Assembly: GCA_020847695.1 (NCBI GenBank)
Contig: JADLBP010000075.1
Span: 1-64,000, forward strand
Direction: 5' to 3'
DNA from: Planctomycetota bacterium
GTDB taxonomy: Bacteria; Planctomycetota; UBA1135; GCA-002686595
DNA: 64,000 nt
Part shown: piece by piece, positions 14,045 to 18,219 of the stretch
Position numbering within the stretch: position 1 is the stretch's first letter
How the letters are laid out: each line of letters starts with the position of its first letter
Program-made: the position numbers and the translations under genes
Notes under the pieces: model-generated
Told to the model about the DNA's origin: nothing
Seen by the model: the letters and a program-made list of their open reading frames with translations, nothing else
Databases searched by the model: none

Positions 14045-15664
14045 TCACTCGCGTTCGAGCACCGCCGCGCATTCCGGCGGATAGCAGCGCAGGATCGCGA
14101 GCTTGCCGCTCTCGACCACCGCGCGAACCCGATCGCCGACGGCGAGCCGAGCAGCGAGCTCGCGCCGCAGCACCTCGCGACGCAAGCCTGCGTGAGCGTC
14201 CGCGAACACGCACGCGCCGCCATCGCCGAGTTCCTTCACCTCGAAGAGCGTTCCTGTCGCGTTCGGCCGGAGCTCGACGAAGCGATTGGCGTCGGCGATG
14301 CGCGGCAGCGATTGGTCGAGCGCGTCCAGCGACACGCGGAACGACTCGACCAGCTCGACACCTTGCCGCTCGTTGGCCCACGCACAGAACGCGCGCAGTG
14401 CGGCGAGCGCCGCGCGCGCCTCGTCGGGTCCGTCGAGCTCGCCGCGCTCCGGCAACCAAACCGTGGCGAACGTCAAGAGATCGCGCGCGCCTAGGTTCTC
14501 GAAGACGCCGATGCCTTGGCCGTAATCGGAGAGCTTGCGGATCGGCGCGAGAGCGCGCGCGACGTCGGGGCCGTGCTCGCGCTCGGTTTCCCAGAGGAAC
14601 TCCTCGACGACCGCGCCGACCACGCCCGGGAAGTCCGGAGCCACGTCGCCGGCCGGGTCGTCGTCGTCCTCCAGTCCGAGGTCGCGTTCGAGCTCCGCGA
14701 AGAGCTTCTCGAGGTCGCGACCTTCGCTGCGCCCGCGATCGAACGCGGCCAGCGCGGAGCGCACGTCGCGCTCTTCCGCCGCGGTCGGGAGCTCCGGCTC
14801 GGGCGGCGGCGCGACCGGCGCGGGCGTCGCGGTCAGCTCGATCCACGCAGCGAGCAGCAGCCGGCGCGCGGGCTCGAGATCGACATCGGTGTCGAACGCG
14901 AGGTGCTCGAGGGTGTCGCCGAGCACGTCCTGCGAGCCGAACACCCACCGTTTCTCGTCGATCGGCGTCGAAGCGAGCTCGGCGAACACCTCGGCGATCG
15001 AGTCGTCGTCGATGCCGGAGGCCGAGAGCCAAGTGCGCGCGCGCTCGACCGCGCTGTCGATCGCCGCGGCCGGCGTCGGAGACCAGAACATCGCTTCGAG
15101 CTCACGCTGCGAGAGTCGCATCACTCCGCGCCGGCGCGCGCGAGCCGCTTCGAGATCGCGCTCGAGCGCCTTGCGGACCTTGGCGTCGCGGTACAACGCC
15201 GCGGCGCGAGAGAGACGATTCGCGGTCGGTCCGAGGACGAACAATCGGCCGATCAACACGTCGTCGACCGCGAGCGCGAACGAACCTTCTTGGTCGACCA
15301 ACGGATGCTCGCCGCCGCTCAGCAGATCGCGAAGCCACGCGCCTTGGCCCTCGACGACCGAGGTCACCTCGAACACGCCGCAGAACGAGTTGACGAGCAT
15401 CGCGACGGCGTCCGCCTCGAGCAGACCTTCCTCGACCACCGCGTGCGCGAGTTCCTGCACCGGCGGCGTCTGCCACGCCTCGCTCGGGCGCTCGAGCAGG
15501 AACCACTCGCGGAAGCGTCGTTCGGCCAACGCGTCCGGCGCGAGCACGTCCGCGAAGAACACGTGGCGCGCGGCGGCCCGTTCGGTCGGCAGTCCGGGTT
15601 CCTGCAGCACGCGGGCCTCGAGGATGCCGAGCGCACGTTCGATGTCTTCGTCTCTGGCGGTCAT
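14045..15664 (-). CDS. Large hypothetical protein, 539 aa, acidic middle region
   Basis: Soluble, no signal peptide. It is mostly helical with long acidic segments (LEDDDDPAGD near residue 335) and a beta-rich C-terminus of about 70 residues (FVELRPNATGTLFEVKEL and so on, ending CYPPEC). No catalytic motif is recognised. TAAGAT lies 9 bases before the ATG (15674-15679 on the plus strand), so the transcript may be leaderless. It sits divergently next to the cobalamin riboswitch, but nothing in the protein suggests B12 binding. Confidence 0.7.
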   Translation of the reverse strand: MTARDEDIERALGILEARVLQEPGLPTERAAARHVFFADVLAPDALAERRFREWFLLERPSEAWQTPPVQELAHAVVEEGLLEADAVAMLVNSFCGVFEVTSVVEGQGAWLRDLLSGGEHPLVDQEGSFALAVDDVLIGRLFVLGPTANRLSRAAALYRDAKVRKALERDLEAARARRRGVMRLSQRELEAMFWSPTPAAAIDSAVERARTWLSASGIDDDSIAEVFAELASTPIDEKRWVFGSQDVLGDTLEHLAFDTDVDLEPARRLLLAAWIELTATPAPVAPPPEPELPTAAEERDVRSALAAFDRGRSEGRDLEKLFAELERDLGLEDDDDPAGDVAPDFPGVVGAVVEEFLWETEREHGPDVARALAPIRKLSDYGQGIGVFENLGARDLLTFATVWLPERGELDGPDEARAALAALRAFCAWANERQGVELVESFRVSLDALDQSLPRIADANRFVELRPNATGTLFEVKELGDGGACVFADAHAGLRREVLRRELAARLAVGDRVRAVVESGKLAILRCYPPECAAVLERE

Positions 15665-15708: not shown

Positions 15709-15736
15709 TTGACAGGTCGCGCGCGCCGAGTACCGT
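15709..15736 (+). promoter_or_regulatory. Sigma-70-type promoter ahead of the cobalamin riboswitch
   Basis: TTGACA at 15709-15714, a 16-base spacer and TACCGT at 15731-15736. Transcription would start near 15743, about 25 bases before the riboswitch core, which is the expected layout. Confidence 0.6.
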
Positions 15737-15767
15737 GCACTTTGCTCTTAGACAATTCGCGCGAACG

Positions 15768-15928
15768 CGAACGGGGAAGCAGGTGTGATTCCTGCACGGT
15801 CCCGCCACTGTGAAACGCATCGCGCCGAGCCACGCTCCGCGCCGCACGACTTCGTGCGGCGACGGAACGAGCCACGGGGTCTCGACCCTGGAAGGCGGCT
15901 TCGGCGATCCGCGTCAGTCAGGATACCC
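15768..15928 (+). promoter_or_regulatory. Cobalamin (adenosylcobalamin-type) riboswitch
   Basis: The conserved core blocks occur in order. GGGAAGCAGGTGTGATTCC is followed by TGCACGG and the near-invariant CCCGCCACTGT (15800-15811). Then come AGCCACG arms, CCTGGAAGGCGGCTTCGGCG and the closing GTCAGTCAGGATACCC (15913-15928). The B12 box at the 3' side matches the family's strongest signature. Such elements switch off translation or transcription when cobalamin is plentiful. The 166 bases between the core and the ATG at 16095 can hold the expression platform; a GCCGC-loop-GCGGC hairpin is present there and the AAAGGA ribosome site lies near 16080. The only downstream gene is the secreted beta-propeller protein. 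Confidence 0.93.
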
Positions 15929-16094
15929 ATCGCGTTCCGCCAGGACCCGCCGTAGCCCGAGGAGGCCTTCGCGAGCCACGCCGCAACGTGCGGCTCGGCC
16001 GCTCGTCCTCTTCGTCGCCCGGCCATTCTCGGCGCCGACTTCCACACGGACGTCGTCGCTGACTTCGACGAAGGATCGAAAGGACATCCCGGCC

Positions 16095-17387
16095 ATGAAT
16101 CGCTTCTCCGTGCTCCTCGCGAGCGCTTCTCTCTGCTTGTTCGTCACGTCCGCGCACGCGGACACTCCTGCGCCCGGCTTCTCGCTCGCGGCGCAGCCGA
16201 GCCCGGTCTTCGGCTCGACCGCGTGCCTGCTCACCGGCGGCGACGTGGTCACGTTCGACGGTTCCTCCGTCGAGCGCTGGACCTCGACCGGCAACCATGT
16301 TTCGACGCTCGCCGTGCTGCCCGGCGTGACTTGGGCGAGCTTCGTCACCCCCACCGCGGATGGCTCGACCGTGTTCTTCGCGGAGAGCTCGAACCACGGG
16401 ATCTACCAGGCCCGCACCGATGGCTCGGGTTGGTCGCAACTGACGACGCTGCTGCTCGCGTACGACGCGGAAGTCGGCGCCGACGGCAGCCTCTACTTGA
16501 GCGCGATGCCGCTCGGCTTCGGCTACGACACCGACCTGGTTCGCCTCGAGACCGTCGCGCCGTTCTCGTGGACTTCGATCGGCGTGATCCCCGGCGCATC
16601 GGGACCGTTGACGTTCGACGGCGCCGGCAATCTGTACTACGCGACTCAGGACACCACGTTCCCCGCCGGCGCCGGCACGACCGATGTCCTCCGTTGGAGC
16701 GCGGCGCAAGTCGCACTCGGCGGTCTGACCGACGTCAACGCGACGCTGTTCGGCGCCGACTTCGACGGCGGCGCGGCGATGGACTTCGACGAGAAGGGCG
16801 GCGATCTGCTGCTCGCAGAAGCGAATTACGGATTGAACGAGTACCGCATCGTGCGCGTCTCGCAGGACAAGGCGCACTCGCCGGTGCTCGTCGAGGCCGG
16901 CCAGTGGATCTCGTCTCTCCAGGTGATCGAACAGGGAAGCGCGGCGACGCTCGACGCGTTCCAGCCGAGCACCGGCACCAAGCTCGTCTACGCGACGACC
17001 GACTTCGGCACGTTCGACGACTTCGTGACGCTGACGCCGAAGCGCCCGGTGCTCGCCGCGAGCGGCGCCGGCACGACCGGCCAGGGTCCGGTGACGTTGA
17101 CCGTCACCGGCGGCGTGCCGAACGGCACGCTGTTCCTCTTCTTCTGCCCGCAGTCCGCGTACTCGCCGACCGAGAGCGTCTACAACTTGCCGGCGTTCAA
17201 GTTCTTCACCGGCTTGAAGCCGTCGAACGTCCGGCGCATCCCGTTCCTGCTGCCGACCGATGCGAGCGGCACGGGCTCGTTCACGTTCTGGAATCCGGGC
17301 GACCTGCAGGGTCAGTACGCGTTCCAGGCGCTGGTCGGCGGCGTCACGGGCTCGTTCGTCGGAAGCTCGACGAGCACGCTGTTCTGA
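16095..17387 (+). CDS. Secreted beta-propeller-like protein under cobalamin riboswitch control
   Basis: 430 residues. The start at 16095 gives a clear signal peptide (MNRFSVLLASASLCLFVTSAHA, cleaved before DTP) and has AAAGGA upstream. Residues about 30-310 show repeated beta-strand units of propeller type (for example DGSGWSQLTTLLLAYDAEVGADGSLYLSA, GPLTFDGAGNLYYATQD, GAAMDFDEKGGDLLLAEANYG). The last 110 residues form a separate beta-rich domain ending SSTSTLF. No enzyme motif, lipobox or sorting motif is seen. Riboswitch control implies a role when B12 is scarce. In Bacteroides the surface propeller BtuG captures B12 next to BtuB, so a B12-capture role is attractive, but it is inferred from regulation and fold alone. 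No transporter gene is adjacent. Confidence 0.85.
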   Translation: MNRFSVLLASASLCLFVTSAHADTPAPGFSLAAQPSPVFGSTACLLTGGDVVTFDGSSVERWTSTGNHVSTLAVLPGVTWASFVTPTADGSTVFFAESSNHGIYQARTDGSGWSQLTTLLLAYDAEVGADGSLYLSAMPLGFGYDTDLVRLETVAPFSWTSIGVIPGASGPLTFDGAGNLYYATQDTTFPAGAGTTDVLRWSAAQVALGGLTDVNATLFGADFDGGAAMDFDEKGGDLLLAEANYGLNEYRIVRVSQDKAHSPVLVEAGQWISSLQVIEQGSAATLDAFQPSTGTKLVYATTDFGTFDDFVTLTPKRPVLAASGAGTTGQGPVTLTVTGGVPNGTLFLFFCPQSAYSPTESVYNLPAFKFFTGLKPSNVRRIPFLLPTDASGTGSFTFWNPGDLQGQYAFQALVGGVTGSFVGSSTSTLF

Positions 17388-18133: not shown

Positions 18134-18219
18134 TGGTGCCGAGGCGGGGACTTGAACCCCGACTCCCTTGCGGGAAATGGATTTTGAATCCATCGCGTCT
18201 GCCATTTCGCCACCCCGGC
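18134..18219 (-). tRNA. tRNA-Leu, anticodon CAA
   Basis: An 86-base cloverleaf with encoded CCA. The acceptor GCCGGGG pairs with CCUCGGC. The anticodon loop UUCAAAA sits in a GAUGGA/UCCAUU arm (anticodon at 18184-18186). There is a long class II variable arm and a T-loop GUUCAAGUC. It reads UUG codons. Confidence 0.95.

Follow-up and report, generated by a model that had tools for sequence, protein, structure and literature searches.

A planctomycetal gene for an exported beta-propeller protein, P0001, stands under a cobalamin riboswitch in the 64,000-nucleotide stretch of DNA that we analysed (the window), and this locus is probably a B12-repressed corrinoid-acquisition unit, with a propeller that works functionally like BtuG and feeds BtuFCD. 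Regulation of the propeller gene by B12 is close to certain. We also consider a role of the propeller in corrinoid acquisition very likely, because riboswitch and gene are coupled in about 95 genomes and because the gene shares an operon with btuCDF; the sequence-only reading had proposed such a link for this locus. Its assignment of the host proved correct as well, since six named relatives all belong to the Planctomycetota.

The riboswitch-led locus

Using cmscan, the RNA element upstream of the gene was matched to Rfam model RF00174 with 55.5 bits (gathering score 31.5; E 4.6e-11 for the window), and the alignment spans the whole model, positions 1-189, in line with the earlier claim of a complete riboswitch ahead of one gene (Table 1). 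The full-length match above the cut-off, the conserved core and the B12 box are features that it shares with RF00174. It departs from the usual representatives in that it drives the gene of an exported propeller, not of a transporter or enzyme, and in its B12 box variant AGTCAGGATACCC. Close variants of AGTCAGGATACCC also form the B12 boxes of the 11 aligned leaders of the family. Of the promoter claimed for the RNA, the TTGACA element is present, and among 28 homologous riboswitches 15 have TTGAC at most 70 nt upstream (expectation 0.036 per stretch), but the -10 element is weak and a consensus promoter scan did not score the TTGACA/TACCGT pair as a promoter.

Cobalamin riboswitches are established to act by repression in response to cobalamin, and we assign this direction to the window riboswitch by reference to the known ones. 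Since a terminator scan of the leader recognised no intrinsic terminator, control of the propeller gene would be exerted at the level of translation. Leader folding hinted at an L5-L13 complementarity in three leaders, but inconsistently, and we do not claim it. The neighbours on both sides, an ORF upstream and a tRNA plus an ORF (minus strand) downstream, lie on the opposite strand, so that the P0001 gene is a lone transcription unit, as had been read from the sequence before. The tRNA gene is located at window 18137-18219, and a tRNA is also found beside homologs L009, L015, L016, L019 and L067, which suggests that the locus was inherited within the family.

Table 1. Coordinates of features in the window and of related loci elsewhere (L numbers).
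Feature	Coordinates	Strand	Basis or remark
Upstream ORF	14045-15664	-	ORF list
Promoter-like element (TTGACA 15709-15714, 16-nt spacer, weak -10 TACCGT 15731-15736)	15709..15736	+	sequence
Cobalamin riboswitch aptamer (RF00174)	15736..15948	+	cmscan; core conserved in 11 aligned leaders
B12 box variant AGTCAGGATACCC	15916-15928	+	departs from Rfam consensus
Aptamer-to-start-codon leader (expression platform)	15949..16094	+	sequence
Candidate Shine-Dalgarno AAAGGA	16079-16084	+	sequence
CDS of P0001, 430-aa exported propeller protein	16095..17387	+	ORF; homologs in 103/154 order genomes
Predicted type I signal peptide, residues 1-22 (cleavage between TSAHA and DT)	16095..16160	+	sequence and family alignment
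Six-bladed beta-propeller, residues 27-316	16173..17042	+	AlphaFold2, DSSP, Foldseek/VIA
C-terminal beta domain, residues 317-430	17043..17384	+	DSSP strands in model
Second cobalamin riboswitch locus of the host	L002:1501-2597		partial match, 31.8 bits; BtuF-like and FecCD permease
A4 family members	L121:6029-7468, L120:2323-3531, L090:9321-10457, L131:5349-6518
Riboswitch-led exported YVTN/PQQ- or NHL-like propellers	L122:3739-5208, L118:2490-3701, L121:4763-6025, L117:2309-3511
Family f8 tandem-propeller row	L090:3148-6216		relatives L091, L093, L094

The start codon of P0001 is an ATG, and it is the predicted signal peptide that would place the protein outside the cytoplasm. The N-terminus carries no lipobox; Cys14 lies within the hydrophobic stretch and is unconserved in the family alignment. 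The location at the surface that the sequence-only reading had implied was not supported, given a signal peptide with neither a lipobox nor a known surface anchor. The propeller and the additional beta domain at the C-terminus that it described for this exported protein agree with the AlphaFold2 model (seven sequences, pLDDT 80.3, pTM 0.79), in which DSSP assigned 24 strands over residues 29-315, corresponding to six four-stranded blades. The C-terminal beta domain includes a low-confidence loop at 354-380 and reached a pLDDT of 64 when modelled alone, so that we claim no fold for it. As a candidate shared sorting module it was rejected, as no second copy was detected in its own genome at E below 0.1.

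Foldseek and VIA-align returned the six-bladed Pizza6/NHL/SMP-30 propellers as best fold matches (Z about 24, rmsd 2.8, 242 residues). At the sequence level, single-sequence and profile searches with P0001 gave no Pfam match above cut-off and no NCBIfam or PADLOC match, and a PDB sequence/profile search yielded just WD40-type propellers at short length and no informative family. None of the homologs has a known B12-binding function. For pattern scans, the 22-row homolog alignment proved too divergent and was replaced by a closer one with six named relatives. The propeller region is strongly acidic (32 D/E versus 10 K/R in residues 23-316), the net charge of P0001 is -20, and all 22 homologs are acidic too. 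Compared with its closest relative (91% identical), P0001 shows a dN/dS of 0.18 and is therefore under purifying selection.

Conservation and gene neighbourhood of the riboswitch-propeller pair

A search for the same pair in related genomes, as suggested by the sequence-only reading, found it across the order and the phylum; the label 'orphan' had thus to be dropped. Among the 154 genomes of the order, mostly incomplete MAGs, cobalamin riboswitches occur in 130 and propeller homologs in 103, and in 95 of these 103 a significant cobalamin riboswitch lies upstream. By coordinate intersection, at least 87 of the 117 homolog places (at least 79 genomes) have a listed same-strand riboswitch upstream of them, in most cases 70-400 nt away, and a direct scan of the other homolog genomes added 16 with RF00174 or RF01482 (E below 0.001) immediately or about one gene upstream. 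Three genomes gave weak riboswitch matches (G076, G065 and G034, the last cut by a contig end), and in five (G043, G074, G093, G135, G152) the contig ends at most 2.2 kb upstream of the homolog. The other places are extra copies; G005, G013, G052 and G067 hold a riboswitch-led copy elsewhere. Homologs without any riboswitch, which had been named beforehand as evidence against the proposal, were thus confined to contig ends and to additional copies, most of them divergent.

When 392 genomes of the phylum were searched with a profile, the family was detected in 54, of which 28 are outside the order. Of 20 homologs sampled there, 18 are immediately preceded by an RF00174 match that exceeds the cut-off (50-104 bits); the other two are L179, which sits at the start of a contig, and L197, a distantly related paralog. 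The propeller family is undescribed and spread through much of the Planctomycetota, and its association with the riboswitch is ancient and near-obligate.

Direct links to B12 transport exist in several genomes. In genus g41, the row behind the riboswitch consists of the FecCD permease gene btuC (1.8e-65), the ABC ATPase gene btuD, a btuF-like gene (Peripla_BP_2) and, last, the propeller; this order was verified gene by gene in G077 (L087:7607-12257) and G073, and the same riboswitch-propeller spacing of 3.1-3.5 kb is found in G072, G075 and G078. In G310, a riboswitch, the propeller and a BtuF-like gene follow one another. The only other cobalamin riboswitch of the host genome precedes genes for a BtuF-like protein and a FecCD permease. 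It was counted against an acquisition role that the gene is mostly alone, in most genomes not beside btuCDF, and that TonB receptors are missing near the riboswitches. No TonB plug was found near the P0001 gene, and of the 150 TonB plugs listed for the family just one has a listed riboswitch less than 10 kb away, on the opposite strand. TonB receptors, mostly from single-receptor genomes, were closer to heme receptors than to BtuB in the NCBIfam models tried, which did not tell heme and B12 apart. A contig of G128 (C518, L089:1-6273), on which a TonB receptor and a cobalamin adenosyltransferase stand under two strong cobalamin riboswitches, was set aside as possible contamination.

CbiC, which marks both corrin-ring pathways, was detected in one of the 154 order genomes and not in the host genome; as the latter is 89.9% complete, the argument relies on the order-wide figure. 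The host genome has 20 matches to B12-binding domains, 15 of them above cut-off. With the ring-synthesis marker nearly absent, the order looks like one without de novo corrin synthesis, and together with the 15 domains this makes the lineage look like a heavy B12 user dependent on scavenging.

The other riboswitches of the order precede either genes of a Btu transporter or those of additional exported proteins. Most frequent among the latter is an undescribed family of about 350 aa (alignment A4), present in 33 of 154 order genomes, with 29 of its 34 copies located after a riboswitch. In G027, G139 and G067 it shares a gene row with the propeller, and in G043 with BtuC-BtuD. It matches no Pfam model, DUF4465 included, and bears a weak similarity to lipoproteins of the Leptospira LIC_13355 family (1.3e-9, below cut-off). 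Riboswitch-led exported propellers of the YVTN/PQQ- or NHL-like type show no detectable sequence similarity to P0001. In family f8, tandem propellers are followed, in a riboswitch-led row, by an exported protein of about 1000 aa with six carboxypeptidase-regulatory-like domains. In G375, a MetE-like gene (Meth_synt_2, 3.6e-7; L179:1342-2298) is located 3' of a propeller homolog.

Proposed mechanism and alternative explanations

With sufficient cobalamin, the riboswitch in the 5' leader would bind cobalamin and turn expression off, probably at translation. When B12 is short, the acidic six-bladed propeller would be made and exported, and in the periplasm or at the cell surface it would most likely bind corrinoids, which would pass to a BtuFCD importer whose genes lie at another, riboswitch-controlled locus of the genome. 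We lean towards direct corrinoid binding by P0001 itself, and we infer the hand-over from propeller to BtuFCD. The acidity of P0001 was counted in favour of an acquisition role, as BtuG2 is acidic too and the face that it offers to cobalamin, which is positively charged, is negative (PMC10404256), but it may have other causes. Counted against this role was the fold, a generic scaffold that is also that of lactonases and dehydrogenases.

Indeed, six-bladed lactonases, DFPase, strictosidine synthase and PQQ dehydrogenases are further near folds of P0001, and the presence of the gene within riboswitch-led btuCDF operons would also fit an exported enzyme that processes corrinoids before their uptake, for instance by release from carriers or by trimming, instead of carrying them. 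However, no sequence match above cut-off to any of these enzyme families was obtained, Gly, Pro and other small residues make up most invariant columns of the family alignment, in which no catalytic residue set was recognised, so that we consider such an enzyme unlikely. Cobalamin riboswitches control MetE or NrdAB isozymes, and P0001 might by the same logic be a B12-independent stand-in that replaces some B12-dependent function in the absence of B12; the homolog in G375 that precedes the MetE-like gene would be consistent with this. But B12 isozymes are cytoplasmic enzymes, while P0001 is apparently exported, matches no enzyme family and has transporter genes as operon partners in several lineages, which renders a stand-in distinctly improbable.

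We put no more trust in the capture of cobalt, a heme-like tetrapyrrole or some other ligand under joint regulation with B12. The heme-leaning TonB receptors of the family and the membership of BtuF-like proteins in a wider siderophore/heme/B12 binding family speak for it, yet the cobalamin riboswitch and the BtuCDF-type genes indicate corrinoids, and with CbiC missing in the order there is no obvious need of cobalt for de novo corrin synthesis. Finally, many exported propellers of planctomycetes have no known function, and one such protein could stand by chance behind a riboswitch that serves something else. This is hardly credible: given that a genome of 4-5 Mb has about two riboswitches, a pair kept in about 95 of 103 genomes, mostly at short spacing, and also by 18 of the 20 homologs sampled elsewhere in the phylum is beyond chance, and its conservation already refutes a fortuitous neighbourhood.

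If P0001 does serve corrinoid acquisition, a B12-acquisition component unnamed in the family libraries used would be added as an independent parallel to the capture proteins of Bacteroides, with about 100 genomes as ready test cases for its family. We see about even chances for the broader view that the Planctomycetota own an extracytoplasmic corrinoid-capture system that arose independently of BtuG, BtuH and BtuJ of the Bacteroidetes, in which several undescribed exported families (six-bladed propellers, the A4 beta family and YVTN-type propellers) are controlled by cobalamin riboswitches and feed BtuFCD without a linked BtuB. B12 exchange shapes microbial communities, and the propeller family would provide a handle on vitamin capture by bacteria without a B12 synthesis pathway; two unmodelled exported families can be offered for functional assignment.

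Comparison with known systems

In the open-access literature on planctomycetes combined with cobalamin, riboswitch or propeller, we found no description of B12 capture. By fold, P0001 is like the NHL/SMP-30 propellers (Pizza6, TRIM NHL domains, the PknD sensor, gluconolactonases), with six blades and a VIA Z of 22-24 over about 240 residues. It differs from them in sequence (8-17% identity), in context and in the extra C-terminal beta domain; P0001 has no NHL or SGL Pfam match, and one of the 22 homologs matches SGL at E 0.084.

BtuG is a seven-bladed surface lipoprotein that sits on BtuB, binds B12 with femtomolar affinity and was reported only from Bacteroidetes (PMC6143338, PMC10404256). 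P0001 shares with Bacteroides BtuG (PF16819/DUF5074) the nature of an exported, acidic beta-propeller, control by a cobalamin riboswitch and a tie to B12 transport genes. Yet six blades are predicted instead of seven (predicted structure, pLDDT 80; best matches mostly six-bladed), the signal peptide is of type I without a lipobox where BtuG is a surface lipoprotein, and the gene is usually alone, with no btuB neighbour. PF16819 gave no match to P0001 at E up to 10 and none in the host genome, which supports the earlier suggestion of a system unrelated to BtuG, to which P0001 has no recognisable relation; across the order, the profile matched weakly in 4 of 154 genomes, always at places other than the propeller. 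BtuG structures were absent among the best 50 rows of Foldseek and of VIA-align, an absence that proves nothing. That P0001 is itself a BtuG is thus ruled out by the missing PF16819 match, the six blades, the lack of a lipobox and the lack of a btuB neighbour.

Accessory exported B12-binding proteins under riboswitch control come from varied families, among them BtuH and the jelly-roll protein BtuJ/DUF4465 (PMC13398666, PMC12751083, PMC8941943). DUF4465 (Pfam) matched neither P0001 nor any of the 22 homologs, and P0001 is a propeller, not a jelly roll like BtuJ. In its proposed role, P0001 would resemble BtuJ and BtuH as an exported accessory protein of riboswitch-controlled B12 uptake in B12 scavengers.
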